Source of the DNA: Sneathiella sp. | Lineage (GTDB): Bacteria; Pseudomonadota; Alphaproteobacteria; Sneathiellales; Sneathiellaceae | DNA length: 64,000 nt | NCBI RefSeq assembly: GCF_029233945.1 | Contig: NZ_JARGOQ010000001.1 | Coordinates: 71,115 to 135,114 of the forward strand | Direction of reading: 5' to 3' | Shown: in pieces, positions 47,898-57,865 of the stretch | Numbering within the stretch: the stretch's first letter is position 1 | Layout: the number at the start of each line of letters is the position of its first letter | Notes under the pieces: generated by a model | The model's database searches: none | What the model was told of the DNA's origin: nothing | The model's input: the letters and a program-made list of their open reading frames with translations, nothing else | Position numbers and translations under genes: made by a program

Positions 47898-49091
47898 ATG
47901 AGCTCTGCGCGCGCGCTGAAATTTGATGTGGTGGTGGTTGGCGCAGGCGCCGCCGGGATGATGTGCGCGATCGAGGCGGGAAAGCGCGGCCGAAAAGTTC
48001 TCCTTCTCGAAAAAGCCGAGAAATGTGGGCAGAAAATCCTTATCTCCGGTGGTGGCCGGTGTAATTTCACCAACCTCCTTGCGGCGCCCGAAAAATTTAT
48101 CTCGAATAATCCGCATTTCTGCAAATCTGCACTTCGCCAGTATACCCAGACGGACTTTATCGCCCTTGTCGAAAAACACGGCATCGCCTATCACGAGAAG
48201 AAGTTGGGGCAGCTATTTTGTGATGAAAGCGCGAAGCAGATTGTCGCGATGCTGGAGGCGGAATGCACCGAGGCTGATGTCACGATATGGCGTGGAACCG
48301 GGGTGGATCAGATTAAGCGGGTGAAGGACGCGTTTCTGATTTTTGCCGGAGAGCAAACGGTTGAGGCAGAAAGTGCTGTCCTGGCAACTGGCGGTCTCTC
48401 CATCCCGAAGCTTGGCGCGAATGATTTTGCCTATCGCATGGCAAAGGACTTTGACCTCTCCCTTGTGCCGCCGAAGCCCGGACTGGTACCCTTTACCTTT
48501 GAGCCTGCAGATAAGGAGCGGTTTGCGGGTCTCACTGGTGTTTCCGCCGATGTTGTTATCCGCATCGGCAAAGTTCAGTTTCGGGAAAATCTCCTTTTTA
48601 CGCACAAGGGCCTCAGTGGACCGGCAATCCTGCAGATATCGTCATTCTGGCAAGCAAGAGAGGCGATCCAGATTGACTTTCTCCCAGATATCGACCTTGC
48701 AAGTCTGCTTAAAGAGAAGCGGCAAAGTCAGCCAAAGCTGAAAGTGGAAAACCTGCTCAAGGACTTCCTTGCAAACCGGTTGGCAGTCTCTCTTATGCAA
48801 GAGGTAGAGGAACTTCCCGAACTTGGTAATCTATCGGACACGAAAATCCAGGAATTGGTAAGTAAAATTAAACTGGTTAAAATAGTTCCAAATGGAACAG
48901 AAGGATATGCCAAGGCGGAAGTAACCGTTGGCGGGGTCAGCACGGCGGTGCTCAACTCAAAAACGATGGAGGTGAAATCCGTGTCCGGTCTTTTCTTCAT
49001 TGGGGAAGCTGTCGACGTGACCGGATTCCTTGGTGGGTATAATTTTCAATGGGCCTGGTCCTCGGGCTTTGTTGCGGGGCAATATGCGTAA
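47898..49091 (+). CDS. NAD(P)/FAD-dependent oxidoreductase, HI0933/YhiN type
   Basis: VVVVGAGAAGMMCAIEAGKRGRKVLLLEKAEKCGQKILISGGGRCNFTN. Confidence 0.94.
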   Translation: MSSARALKFDVVVVGAGAAGMMCAIEAGKRGRKVLLLEKAEKCGQKILISGGGRCNFTNLLAAPEKFISNNPHFCKSALRQYTQTDFIALVEKHGIAYHEKKLGQLFCDESAKQIVAMLEAECTEADVTIWRGTGVDQIKRVKDAFLIFAGEQTVEAESAVLATGGLSIPKLGANDFAYRMAKDFDLSLVPPKPGLVPFTFEPADKERFAGLTGVSADVVIRIGKVQFRENLLFTHKGLSGPAILQISSFWQAREAIQIDFLPDIDLASLLKEKRQSQPKLKVENLLKDFLANRLAVSLMQEVEELPELGNLSDTKIQELVSKIKLVKIVPNGTEGYAKAEVTVGGVSTAVLNSKTMEVKSVSGLFFIGEAVDVTGFLGGYNFQWAWSSGFVAGQYA

Positions 49092-49893
49092 GCCTCGGGG
49101 AAAAGAGGATTGGCTGGCCTTGGCCTCGGGGCTCAGTATCGGGGCTGATGCATTCATTGACGAACTGCCCTTCTCGCCATCCAGACTAAGGGAGATTTCG
49201 GGCTCATTCTGGGAGGAGGGGTATCTCTCCCTCCCGCCCCTGTTTGGTGAAGATGAGTTGGTCCCAATCCGGGATGCGATATACGCTCTGTCAGAACAGG
49301 ATATCCCGCCGGTTTATATCTATCTTTTTGATCAGCCCTGGTGGCTCTTTGCGCGCCTTGGCGTCTTGCTTCGACATTTTGCCGGAGAGAAATTTGGCGT
49401 TCTTCCCAACCTTTGGGCCTGGCATCTTGATCGGGAAGGTGCACGCGGCTGGCCGCCGCATCGTGATTGCGATGCCGAGACCGTCTTCGGGGAAGGAGAG
49501 GACGCTGTCCTGATGAGCCTTTCTCTCTGGCTCCCGCTGACGGATGCGGATGAGAGTAATGGCTGTATGTATGTCGTGCCCCAATCGCGTCATGCGGCAA
49601 AGGGTACGGCTCAAAAAGCCGATCTTTTGGGAGCACGACCGCTTCCCGTAAAGGCGGGATCCCTTCTCGGCTGGCCGCAGGATTTATACCACTGGGGCGG
49701 TGAATATACGCCGATGGCAAAGAACCCGAGGGTTAGTCTATCGCTCGAATTTCAGAACGGAGCGTTTGATCCGCTTGCCGAGCCTTTGATGGATATGGAT
49801 AAACTTCCACCATTCGAGACACGGCGCAGACTTATTCAGGATCAGTTTGCGAAGTATCGCCATATTGATCCGGGTTTTGGCGCAGGAAAATAA
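49084..49893 (+). CDS. Phytanoyl-CoA dioxygenase (PhyH)-like protein
   Basis: HRD motif in WPPHRDCDAE, distal His in LYHWGG, Arg in NPRVSLSLEF; SNGCMYVVPQSR. Confidence 0.82.
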   Translation: MRKPRGKEDWLALASGLSIGADAFIDELPFSPSRLREISGSFWEEGYLSLPPLFGEDELVPIRDAIYALSEQDIPPVYIYLFDQPWWLFARLGVLLRHFAGEKFGVLPNLWAWHLDREGARGWPPHRDCDAETVFGEGEDAVLMSLSLWLPLTDADESNGCMYVVPQSRHAAKGTAQKADLLGARPLPVKAGSLLGWPQDLYHWGGEYTPMAKNPRVSLSLEFQNGAFDPLAEPLMDMDKLPPFETRRRLIQDQFAKYRHIDPGFGAGK

Positions 49894-52684: not shown

Positions 52685-53887
52685 ATGATCTTCGAATATT
52701 CGGACAAGGTAAAGGAACTGCAAGCCAGGGTGCAGGCCTTTATGGATGAGCATGTCTATCCTAATGAACAGCTATTTTACGATCAGGTGGATGAGGGCGA
52801 CCGCTGGCAACCGACAGCCATTGTCGAGGAACTGAAGGCAAAGGCCAAAGCGGCGGGACTTTGGAACCTGTTCTTGCCCGAAAGTGATCGGGGAGCAGGC
52901 CTCACCAATCTTGAATATGCGCCGCTTTGTGAAATTATGGGGCGTGTCAGCTTTGCGCCGGAAGTCTTCAACTGTTCGGCGCCGGACACTGGTAATATGG
53001 AAGTGTTCGAGCGCTATGCGAATGAGGAGCTGAAAGAGCGCTGGTTGAAACCGCTGCTTGAGGGAGAAATCCGGTCGGCTTTCGCCATGACGGAACCTGC
53101 CGTTGCGTCATCGGATGCGACAAATATCGAATCCGAGATTACCCGCGATGGCGATGAATATGTCATCAATGGCACCAAATGGTGGACGTCCGGCGCCTAT
53201 GACCCGCGCTGTAAGGTTCTGATCTTCATGGGGAAGACAGACAAGACCGCTTCGCTTTATCAGCAACAATCCATGATCATAGTTCCCATGGAAACACCTG
53301 GCATCAATGTGAAGCGCTTTCTTCCGGTGTTCGGTTATGACGATGCGCCGCATGGTCATGCAGAGGTGGAGTTCAAGGACGTGCGGGTTCCGGCGGATCA
53401 TATGCTGCTGGGTGAAGGGCGTGGCTTCGAAATTGCGCAAGGGCGCCTCGGCCCGGGACGTATTCATCATTGCATGCGGCAGGTTGGCGTTGCCGAGCGG
53501 GCGCTGGAGAAAATGTGCAAGCGCGTAAAGTCCCGCGTTGCCTTCGGCAAGCCCATCGCGGAGCAAACGGTTACACTGGAGCGTATTGCCGAATCCCGTG
53601 CGATGATTGAGCAGGCACGGCTATTGACCCTGAAGGCGGCCTATATGATGGACACCGTTGGCAACAAGGAAGCGAAAGCGGAAATCGCCATGATCAAGGT
53701 GGTCGCCCCGAATATTACCGGGAAGATCATTGACTGGGCGATCCAGGCCCATGGCGCGGGTGGTGTAAGTGATGACTTCGGTCTTGCCTTTGCCTATGCC
53801 CATTCACGGACCTTGCGTCTTGCCGACGGTCCTGATGAAGTGCATCGGAACCAGATTGGCCGACTGGAACTTAAAAAGTATAATTGA
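52685..53887 (+). CDS. ACAD10/11-FadE2-type acyl-CoA dehydrogenase
   Basis: [93 protein letters not shown]. Confidence 0.92.
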
Positions 53888-54041: not shown

Positions 54042-54272
54042 ATGATCAAGTTTCTGGGTTGGGTAATGTTGGGCATCATTGTGATTGTTGCTGGCTTTTT
54101 GTATCGCTATGAAAGCCTTGACCCCTGCGAATGGCTGACCCAGGATTTAGCAGCACATGCGGGATTACAACCGGTCTCCGGCCTTGGTGAAGCTGCCGGT
54201 CTCGTGATGGAGCCGATAGAATGTGTCCAGCGCTGGGCCAATTTGAGAATTGAAGACGCTGAAAACCACTAG
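54042..54272 (+). CDS. Small hypothetical protein with one N-terminal TM segment
   Basis: MIKFLGWVMLGIIVIVAGFLYRYESLDPCEWL...; stop overlaps the convergent dddP stop. Confidence 0.6.
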   Translation: MIKFLGWVMLGIIVIVAGFLYRYESLDPCEWLTQDLAAHAGLQPVSGLGEAAGLVMEPIECVQRWANLRIEDAENH

Positions 54273-55597
54273 GAGAGCAGGATTTTCTCGAACGGATAAG
54301 AGGTCATATTCTCATAACCGGTATCTGTGATTACAACCTGCTCCTCCAGCTTGACGCCTTCCTGCCCCCCTTCCGCGCCGATATAGGCCTCGACGCAAAT
54401 CACCATCCCCGGCACCAGTTCATATTCAAATGCCCCTTCGTGATAGTCTTCCGGATAGGCAATATGCGGCCATTCATCGCAAAGCCCGACGCCGTGCATC
54501 TTCACGGAGTAGCGGGAATTCACGAATTCCTCCGCAAGTAGATGCCCGCCAAAGACAATCTCCTTAAACGGAACACCGGGTGCCAGAAGCTCCATATTTT
54601 GCTGAATATGCTCATAGGCATATTGATAGAGCCTTTTTTGCTCCGCTGTGGGGGACCCATCGCCGATAAACCAGGTACGTGAAATATCCGCGCACATACC
54701 AAAGCAACCGACCAGATCCGTATCGAAAGCCAGTAGTTCGTTATTCCCGATCACCCGTGGGCCGCATTCCTGAAACCACGGGTTGGTCCGAGGGCCTGAA
54801 GCAAGAATTCGGGTCTCGATCCATTCGCCACCACGCTTGATATTTTCTGCATGCAGGACGGCCCAAACATCATTCTCAGTCAGGCCGGGACAAGCAATAC
54901 GTTGCATTTCATACATTGAAATTTCCGTTGCATGAACAGCGCATCGAAGGGCCTTGATTTCTTCCGACTGTTTGACGGCGCGGGTCTTTTCCGTCACTTC
55001 TTCCCCGTCAAAAAGATGAAAACCCAGCCCTTCAAGGGCCCGTAGGCCATGTATCTGGATTTTATCTACGGCAAGACGGCGGTTGCTGCCTGCATGCTCC
55101 CGCATCAGGCTATCGATCTGCGCGGCGAACCGTTCCGCGTTCTCAACGGACTTATCCCCGCTCGTAAAATAGAAGAAGGAGGCGCCGGACCGCGTCTCGC
55201 GTACCAACGGATTGAAAGCGGTCAGCAGATCATTGGCGCCGAAGTCCCAGATAACCATATATCCATCCGCCAGGACGAGGCAGGCGCGGAAAGGGTTATG
55301 CGCCGCCCAGAGCTGCATATTCGTGGTGTCGGAGGCAAAGCGGATGTTGAGCGGATCATACATCAGAATGCCGCCATAGCCCCGCACATGCAGCGCCTGT
55401 ACCAGACGGTCGAGACGCTGCGCACGCATGAGTTTGAGGTCGGGAACATCCAGTCCAGCTGCGGCCCACTCATCAAACGCGAGCTGTGTCGGACCGATCT
55501 CGACACGGTCATTATCCAGCGGCGTGCCGTCTGGTTTTTTTGCAGGAGCAGTTTGGCCGCCAGTGATTTCGCGGCCCGAAAAGATATTGCGCTTCAT
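54269..55597 (-). CDS. dddP: DddP-type DMSP lyase (M24 metallopeptidase fold)
   Basis: LDNDRVEIGPTQLAFDEWAAAGL; NPWFQECGPRVIGNNELLAFDTDLVGCFGMCADISRTWFIGDG; MHGVGLCDEWPHIAYPEDYHEG; VCVEAYIGAEGGQEGVKLEEQVVIT - metal ligands and Asp at His+6 retained. Confidence 0.85.
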   Translation of the reverse strand: MKRNIFSGREITGGQTAPAKKPDGTPLDNDRVEIGPTQLAFDEWAAAGLDVPDLKLMRAQRLDRLVQALHVRGYGGILMYDPLNIRFASDTTNMQLWAAHNPFRACLVLADGYMVIWDFGANDLLTAFNPLVRETRSGASFFYFTSGDKSVENAERFAAQIDSLMREHAGSNRRLAVDKIQIHGLRALEGLGFHLFDGEEVTEKTRAVKQSEEIKALRCAVHATEISMYEMQRIACPGLTENDVWAVLHAENIKRGGEWIETRILASGPRTNPWFQECGPRVIGNNELLAFDTDLVGCFGMCADISRTWFIGDGSPTAEQKRLYQYAYEHIQQNMELLAPGVPFKEIVFGGHLLAEEFVNSRYSVKMHGVGLCDEWPHIAYPEDYHEGAFEYELVPGMVICVEAYIGAEGGQEGVKLEEQVVITDTGYENMTSYPFEKILLS

Positions 55598-55700: not shown

Positions 55701-56750
55701 TTATAGCTGGCTTTCGACCTTCTGCCAGCCGAGGGTGGCTAGCATTTTGGTGAATTCCGCATACTCTTCGCCGACCTTTGAACTCGAATTGCCATCAAGA
55801 CCACGCTTATACACGCCCTGCACGATGGCCGTGGTACGGAAGAGAGAGAAGGCCAGGTAAAATCCCCAGTTTTCAATGCCATCACGCCCCGTGCGCTTGC
55901 AGTAGGCGTCAATATAGGCTTGCTCCGTCGGGATGCCCGTTGCACCGAAATCGGTCCCGACAAGACCACCATTGCGTGGATGCATATAATGATAGTTCAT
56001 GCAGTTATAGGCAAGGTCGGAAAGCGGATGCCCGATGGTGGAAAGCTCCCAATCAAGCACCGCAACCACCTCAGGCTTTGTCGGATGCACGATCATATTT
56101 CCAAGCCGGTAATCCCCATGAACAATGGTGCTTTCATCTTTTTCCGGCAAATTTTCCGGCAGCCATTTGATCAGGTTTTCCATCGCCTCCAGATCATGAG
56201 TTTGAGAGGCTCGGTACTGCTTCGTCCAGCGGCTGATCTGCCGCTCGATATAGTTTCCTCTTTTGCCAAAATCCGACAGGCCGACTGCATCGATATCTAC
56301 ATTATGAAGTTTGGCGAGCGAGTCATTCATCGCGTCACATATTGCGGCGCGCAAATGCGGCTCTTCGCCCGGAATATCAGGGGATAGAATAATGCGGCCT
56401 TCCACCTTTTCCATGATGTAAAAGGCGGTTCCGATAATATTGTCATCCTCACACAGGCAAAAGGTGCGGGGGACCGGAACGTCAGTATTCTGAAGCGCGG
56501 AAATAACCCGATACTCCCGATCGACCGCGTGGGCCGAGGGGAGGAGATTTCCCGGAGGCTTTTTCCGCATCACATAGTCCCGCTCAGGCGTGTGCAGTAA
56601 AAATGTCGGATTAGACTGCCCGCCCTGGAACTGGCTGATCTGGAGCGGGCCCTTAAAGCCGTCTACATTTTCGGTCAAATAATCGAACAGCGCCCCTTCA
56701 TTGAACTTGTGCATTTCCCGAACCGGGATGATCTCCACTCCGTCACTCAT
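55701..56750 (-). CDS. Phosphotransferase (APH) family protein, ACAD10/11 N-terminal kinase type (copy 1)
   Basis: GGQSNPTFLLHTPERDYVMRKKPPGNLLPSAHAVDREYRVI; VHGDYRLGNMIV; VAVLDWELSTIGHPLSDLAY. Confidence 0.92.
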   Translation of the reverse strand: MSDGVEIIPVREMHKFNEGALFDYLTENVDGFKGPLQISQFQGGQSNPTFLLHTPERDYVMRKKPPGNLLPSAHAVDREYRVISALQNTDVPVPRTFCLCEDDNIIGTAFYIMEKVEGRIILSPDIPGEEPHLRAAICDAMNDSLAKLHNVDIDAVGLSDFGKRGNYIERQISRWTKQYRASQTHDLEAMENLIKWLPENLPEKDESTIVHGDYRLGNMIVHPTKPEVVAVLDWELSTIGHPLSDLAYNCMNYHYMHPRNGGLVGTDFGATGIPTEQAYIDAYCKRTGRDGIENWGFYLAFSLFRTTAIVQGVYKRGLDGNSSSKVGEEYAEFTKMLATLGWQKVESQL

Positions 56751-56794
56751 AAATGTCCCTTTTTCTTTTTTGTTTTTTGGGAGATAGAGCCGCC

Positions 56795-57865
56795 TTATGC
56801 GCCCTTGATAATTTTCTCGGCCTGTTCCCAACCGCGGATAGCCAGCGGTTTGACGCGAACGGCGACATCCGCTGCGTTCTTGTTCGCGGCCGTACCGTCT
56901 TTTACACGTCCGACAATACCCTGCAGGATCGCGGCAAGGCGGAACATGTTATAGGCGGCATAAAAATCCCAGTTATCGATCCCCTCTCGCCCGGTTCTCT
57001 CGCAGTAAGCGGCAACATATTGCTCTTCTGTTGGGATGCCGAGCGCGGGAAGATCCAGACCGTTTAGGCCCCGAAACAGTTCGGGTTCCAGCCGCCAGGT
57101 CATGCAGTGATACGAAAAATCGGCAATCGGATGGCCAAGTGTTGCCAATTCCCAATCAAGTATGCCCATGACCCGGTGGGATTCCTTATCGAGCACCGTA
57201 TTATCAAGGCGGTAATCCCCATGAACAACCGCCGTTTCATCGCCCGGCGGAATATTATCCGGTAGCCAGGCCATCAGATTATCCATCGCCTCAATGGTTT
57301 CCGTCTCCGATGCCCGGTATTGTTTCGTCCAGCGATTAATCTGCCGCGCGAGGTAGTCCGTCGGCTTGCCGAAACTTTCAAGGCCAACGGTCTTGTAGTC
57401 GACCTGATGCAGCGCGGCCATGGCGGCGTTCATGCTATCGAAAACCGCAACCCGAGCGGCCTTTGAATATCCCGGCAGGGAGGGGTCCCATTCGATATCG
57501 CCGTTCAGGAATTCCATGACATAGAACATGGTGCCGATGATGGATTCATCTTCGCACAGGCAATAGGTTTTTGGGACAGGCACGTCGGTATTGGCAAGGG
57601 CTGTCAGAACCCTGTATTCGCGGTCAACCGCATGTGCGGAGGGGAGAAGCTTGCCGGGTGGCTTGCGCCTGAGCACATATCTGCGGTCCGGTGTCACCAA
57701 CATGTAACTTGGGTTGGATTGCCCGCCCTTAAATTGCGAAACCTCAAGCGGTCCCTTAAAGCCAACAACATTCTTTTTAAGGTAATCTTCCAATGGTGCA
57801 ACGTCGAACTTGTGGCGCTCGCGCACTTCCATTGTTCCCGAAAACTGAGTTGAATCGTCGGACAT
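56795..57865 (-). CDS. Phosphotransferase (APH) family protein, ACAD10/11 N-terminal kinase type (copy 2)
   Basis: GGQSNPSYMLVTPDRRYVLRRKPPGKLLPSAHAVDREYRVL; VHGDYRLDNTVL; MGILDWELATLGHPIADFSY. Confidence 0.92.
   Translation of the reverse strand: MSDDSTQFSGTMEVRERHKFDVAPLEDYLKKNVVGFKGPLEVSQFKGGQSNPSYMLVTPDRRYVLRRKPPGKLLPSAHAVDREYRVLTALANTDVPVPKTYCLCEDESIIGTMFYVMEFLNGDIEWDPSLPGYSKAARVAVFDSMNAAMAALHQVDYKTVGLESFGKPTDYLARQINRWTKQYRASETETIEAMDNLMAWLPDNIPPGDETAVVHGDYRLDNTVLDKESHRVMGILDWELATLGHPIADFSYHCMTWRLEPELFRGLNGLDLPALGIPTEEQYVAAYCERTGREGIDNWDFYAAYNMFRLAAILQGIVGRVKDGTAANKNAADVAVRVKPLAIRGWEQAEKIIKGA

Follow-up and report, generated by a model that had tools for sequence, protein, structure and literature searches.

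Genomic locus

The window, a stretch of 64,000 nucleotides from a Sneathiella sp. contig (NZ_JARGOQ010000001.1), carries at 54269-55597 an open reading frame of 442 amino acids that starts with ATG on the minus strand; the plus strand across the same interval contains several in-frame stops. The initial annotation had placed the gene at exactly these coordinates without naming a strand. The gene and its neighbours are as follows:

52685-53887, plus strand: acyl-CoA dehydrogenase (ACAD), resembling the dehydrogenase domain of ACAD11, convergent with dddP
54042-54272, plus strand: small open reading frame of 76 amino acids, convergent, overlapping the dddP stop by 4 bp
54269-55597, minus strand: dddP, predicted DMSP lyase DddP, 442 amino acids, assigned by homology, residues and tree
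55701-56831, minus strand: APH1, kinase-like protein (PF01636) resembling the kinase domain of ACAD11, 103 bp upstream of dddP
56795-57865, minus strand: APH2, second PF01636 kinase-like protein, a paralogue of APH1 (about 55%)

Where the surroundings were examined, the gene order reads xseA, purD, APH2, APH1, dddP, convergent ACAD, tadA, PuuD and rluB. The APH match to the kinase domain of ACAD11 reaches 288 bits, and that of ACAD to the dehydrogenase domain 472 bits. In mammalian ACAD11, the two domains jointly feed 4-hydroxy fatty acids to beta-oxidation (PMC11342911), and by analogy APH1, APH2 and ACAD probably represent a split bacterial version of this module. The neighbourhood had earlier been described as otherwise housekeeping, which holds roughly, but the genes directly beside dddP would belong to this ACAD11-like lipid-catabolism module and not to core housekeeping. 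As the APH/ACAD module also occurs in Sneathiella genomes without dddP, it is not a DMSP operon. No DMSP operon was found around dddP and no DMSP gene adjoins it, so that operon context gives no support; a sigma-70 promoter scan returned no match.

Two further observations concern the surrounding sequence. The 76-amino-acid open reading frame has a hydrophobic N-terminus, and a close copy of it can be read in a sister species that lost dddP. The interval 49030-49893 (plus strand) encodes a dioxygenase-like protein of the PhyH family (PF05721), for which NCBIfam gave no match.

Family membership and active-site residues

The protein was compared with NF043017, the curated NCBI equivalog model for DddP (cut-off 600 bits), which it passes with 688.5 bits over residues 18-440. 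The second-best NCBIfam family, prolidase, scored 48.1 bits against a cut-off of 630 (PepQ), and the Xaa-Pro aminopeptidase model PRK10879 scored 35 bits against a cut-off of 465, both far below threshold; the Pfam match is Peptidase_M24 (PF00557). The best four PDB matches (563-591 bits) are all DddP structures, namely 4rzy, 4s01 and 4s00 from Ruegeria lacuscaerulensis, two of which are point variants, and 4b28 from Roseobacter denitrificans, whereas true prolidases and aminopeptidases in the PDB reach at most 55 bits. The top match, a crystal structure of R. lacuscaerulensis DddP (RlDddP), scores 591 bits (E 1e-176), and this score, together with a dN/dS of 0.055-0.09 among the Sneathiella orthologues, places the match far beyond chance. 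The sequence evidence identifies the open reading frame as an ordinary member of the known enzyme family DddP. Such a name is not new for proteins of this kind: the NCBI pipeline calls plasmid-borne homologues with 55-59% identity ‘dimethylsulfonioproprionate lyase DddP’ and would be expected to apply it here as well.

The motifs quoted in the initial annotation, DNDRVEIGPTQLAFDEWAAAGL, GPRTNPWFQECGPRVI, FDTDLVG, ADIS, MHGVGLCDEW, CVEA and LEEQV, were all found in the open reading frame. We aligned the protein with 95 relatives, comprising 88 classed as DddP and seven DddP-like proteins from Sneathiella genomes. In this alignment the metal ligands of RdDddP from R. denitrificans (D295, D297, D307, H371, E406 and E421; PMC4108388) correspond to D292, D294, D304, H368, E403 and E418. 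The metal-binding residues listed earlier are thus present, but their count of five was too low, since FDTDLVG supplies two of them (D292 and D294), which makes six. Tyr366 and Asp377, which do not vary among DddP lyases, align with Y363 and D374, and the alignment with relatives bears out the proposed catalytic Asp six residues past the His (D374 and H368), so that D374 is a candidate catalytic base. W97 aligns with position 95 of RlDddP, which we take to be the sulfonium-contacting Trp of DddP (Trp95); it is Trp in 88/88 DddPs and in 2/7 DddP-like proteins. Both Trp and Tyr contact the DMSP sulfur (review, PMC5395565). The equivalents of the ligands, Tyr366, Asp377 and Trp95 are kept in every one of the 88 relatives classed as DddP.

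Phylogeny and DddP-like relatives

A quick maximum-likelihood tree was built from 90 proteins, 83 DddP rows and seven DddP-like rows as outgroup, a set that leaves aside the fungal and Oceanimonas proteins. The branch separating the two sets has an SH-aLRT support of 99, and the DddPs of Roseovarius nubinhibens (RnDddP) and R. lacuscaerulensis (RlDddP) fall inside the DddP clade. The window protein belongs to a group of nine Sneathiella proteins (support 100) that branches outside the Roseobacter group with RnDddP and RlDddP, and the deepest branching order within DddP is unreliable, with some long branches meeting there. A tree position outside the DddP clade had been named in advance as the outcome that would speak against a lyase, and it did not occur. 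Clade, equivalog score and PDB matches all agree with the original assignment to DddP rather than to a generic Xaa-Pro peptidase.

The seven DddP-like M24 proteins come from other Sneathiella genomes (L090, L091, L092, L095, L096, L098 and L099). They have the M24 fold and the six metal ligands in common with the window protein, but share only 37-39% identity with it and score 299-327 bits on NF043017, below the cut-off. The catalytic Asp is replaced by Gly in six of the seven and by Asn in the other; the Trp of CDEW is replaced by Tyr, and in 5/7 that of MQLW by Phe. Because the ligands are common to both groups and the catalytic Asp is found only in DddP, the two can be separated without relying on the overall score. 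Metagenome surveys that use loose thresholds could count proteins of this type as dddP by mistake. Lacking the catalytic Asp, these proteins offer natural negative controls both for assays and for counting dddP in metagenomes.

At one locus (L167), a DddP-like gene adjoins genes that read as a TauD-like dioxygenase, a glyoxalase-like protein and an MDR-like oxidoreductase. A further relative, 47% identical, is encoded in a sister genus (G025; L181:4122-5285, minus strand) and scores 418.8 bits, under the DddP cut-off. It keeps the catalytic Asp (HGVGLCDE), every ligand and the Trp of MQxW, and its sequence suggests an intermediate form, possibly but not certainly a lyase.

Distribution and history of dddP in Sneathiella

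Among 25 genomes of the genus, nine carry a dddP over the cut-off, at the same site in every case with surroundings examined. The proteins flanking the gene in the window are 92% identical to those of Sneathiella sp. HT1-7. An unrooted tree of eight flanking genes places all dddP carriers in one clade of 11 rows (split support 100/100), and within this clade G011, G012 and G014 have no dddP at the site; G014 is about 70% complete, with the site fully sequenced. In G020, a relic remains between APH1 and ACAD (G020:C39, L161:3495-3620), consisting of only the last 42 codons with 74% identity. The simplest reading is that dddP was present at this site in the common ancestor and was then lost repeatedly; as the tree is unrooted, the direction of change is argued from the relic and from the site being common to the carriers.

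Among the carriers, dN/dS of dddP is 0.055-0.09 (about 0.07) where unsaturated, similar to the neighbouring genes. The GC content of dddP (54.5%) is close to that of the window (54.2%), GC and GC3 match the neighbours and the codon composition is native. The low dN/dS and the native codon composition together indicate that dddP has been selected for function; the gene is old in the lineage and under purifying selection. A recent transfer of dddP was also considered for the host species and rejected, given that GC and GC3 match the neighbours and that the site is common to the clade. Family, residues, clade, locus and selection of dddP were all established directly in this analysis.

Our literature search found no paper pairing Sneathiella with DddP, and the enzyme seems to have gone undiscussed in this genus so far. 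Sneathiella joins the hosts of dddP, the most abundant bacterial DMSP lyase gene, with a fixed chromosomal site and clear loss events. The substrate, DMSP, is an algal sulfur compound, and DMS is a climate-active gas.

Predicted pathway and mechanism

The genome search for DMSP genes covered BCCT transporters, AcuI/YhdH, PrpE, cupin DMSP lyases and DmdA. It revealed two BCCT transporters and one AcuI/YhdH-family reductase over the cut-off (TIGR02823, at C29). AcuI/YhdH occurs in 25/25 Sneathiella genomes, with or without dddP, and is therefore not specific evidence for DMSP use. The best PrpE match (TIGR02316) reached 701 bits, below the cut-off of 827, and this propionyl-CoA synthetase-like protein is a candidate acrylate-CoA ligase. 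No cupin DMSP lyases (PF16867) were found in the genome, and none of the six proteins scanned among its 11 GCV_T matches scored as DmdA in NCBIfam, which may lack a DmdA model. The only free-standing full-length GCV_T protein was considered as DmdA and proved to be GcvT itself (545.9 bits, cut-off 459); five other GCV_T proteins were scanned, four of which match sarcosine-oxidase/GcvT-type models below the cut-off and one of which has no assignment. This predicted gene set would fit a DMSP-cleaving, non-demethylating bacterium.

We infer the activity, mechanism and pathway of the window protein from its homology to characterised DddPs. Given 60% identity to a crystallised DddP, it would be a homodimer whose two-iron centre is coordinated by three Asp, two Glu and one His. 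The iron would bind the DMSP carboxylate, the sulfonium would be kept in place by Tyr and Trp, and the alpha proton would pass to Asp374 (Asp377 in RlDddP) (PMC4108388, PMC5395565). Beta-elimination would then break the C-S bond and yield DMS and acrylate. DMSOP is probably cleaved too, less efficiently, in keeping with the rule for DddPs, which convert it to DMSO and acrylate less efficiently than they cleave DMSP (PMC10686828). Uptake of the substrate probably relies on the BCCT transporters. An acyl-CoA ligase and the AcuI/YhdH reductase, whose genes lie elsewhere in the genome, probably deal with the acrylate.

Alternative explanations

On the basis of these sequence features, the gene very probably encodes a functional DddP. 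Among the points that weigh against this is the position of the Sneathiella branch outside the Roseobacter group, which holds the characterised enzymes of the tree. It might be supposed that the protein belongs to the M24 peptidases, or is some other C-N hydrolase, and merely resembles DddP, since it has the M24 domain (PF00557) and the genus contains DddP-like M24 proteins at 37-39% identity. We consider this highly improbable: the prolidase model gives 48 bits where the DddP model gives 688, the DddP-like group without the catalytic Asp stands apart in the tree, and D374 and F275, the latter placed by motif, occupy the positions of the two substrate-binding His of M24 peptidases (PMC5395565). 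Equally little credence is due to the idea that dddP serves its ACAD11-like neighbours (4-hydroxyacyl-CoA kinase and dehydrogenase) instead of DMSP breakdown. Two kinase-like genes on its strand do lie upstream of dddP, the nearer one 103 bp away, and no DMSP genes are near, but the module is conserved in genomes with dddP, without it or with its relic and so does not need it, and no feature of the DddP family suggests acyl-CoA chemistry.

The question of substrate deserves separate weighing. The enzyme could be a DddP that acts in nature mainly on DMSOP, or on another sulfonium or a betaine, and only secondarily on DMSP. Every known DMSP lyase also cleaves DMSOP, and in Escherichia coli the DddP of R. 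nubinhibens slightly favoured it (PMC10686828); the millimolar Km for DMSP (PMC5395565) would likewise leave room for another compound. Most tested DddPs, however, favour DMSP, and a set of enzymes that included purified DddP proved 3-13-fold more efficient with it (PMC10686828), which makes a different main substrate unlikely. A shift of preference particular to the Sneathiella branch, for example from DMSP to DMSOP, which individual species of the genus would have kept or lost, seems to us quite unlikely. The preferred reading remains a functional DddP that would act on DMSP.

Comparison with characterised DddPs

Active DddPs diverge widely, RdDddP sharing 50% identity with the Aspergillus enzyme and 32% with the Fusarium enzyme (PMC4108388); the 60% identity of the window protein to a proven DddP is well within this range. 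RnDddP and RlDddP are biochemically proven (PMC4108388, PMC5395565), and two loci of our set, L049 and L074, come from the same strains as these enzymes. The Km of characterised DddPs for DMSP is high, at 14-17 mM (PMC5395565). Compared with RdDddP (PDB 4b28), the window protein, a lyase by prediction, matches with 563 bits over residues 19-441 and has one loop that is 5 residues shorter. The same loop difference separates this predicted enzyme from RlDddP of Ruegeria (Silicibacter) lacuscaerulensis ITI-1157 (4rzy, 4rzz, 4s00 and 4s01; L074), with which it shares 60% identity and identical key residues.

The original DddP, that of R. nubinhibens ISM (L049), converts DMSP to DMS and acrylate, and its knockout cuts DMS production about eightfold (PMC4108388). 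The two proteins differ in lineage, Sneathiellaceae as opposed to Roseobacteraceae, the Sneathiella proteins forming a separate branch outside the Roseobacter group. They nevertheless share 61% identity over 424 residues, are equal in length save for the N-terminus, which varies, and an indel of 5 residues, and have every ligand and catalytic residue in common.
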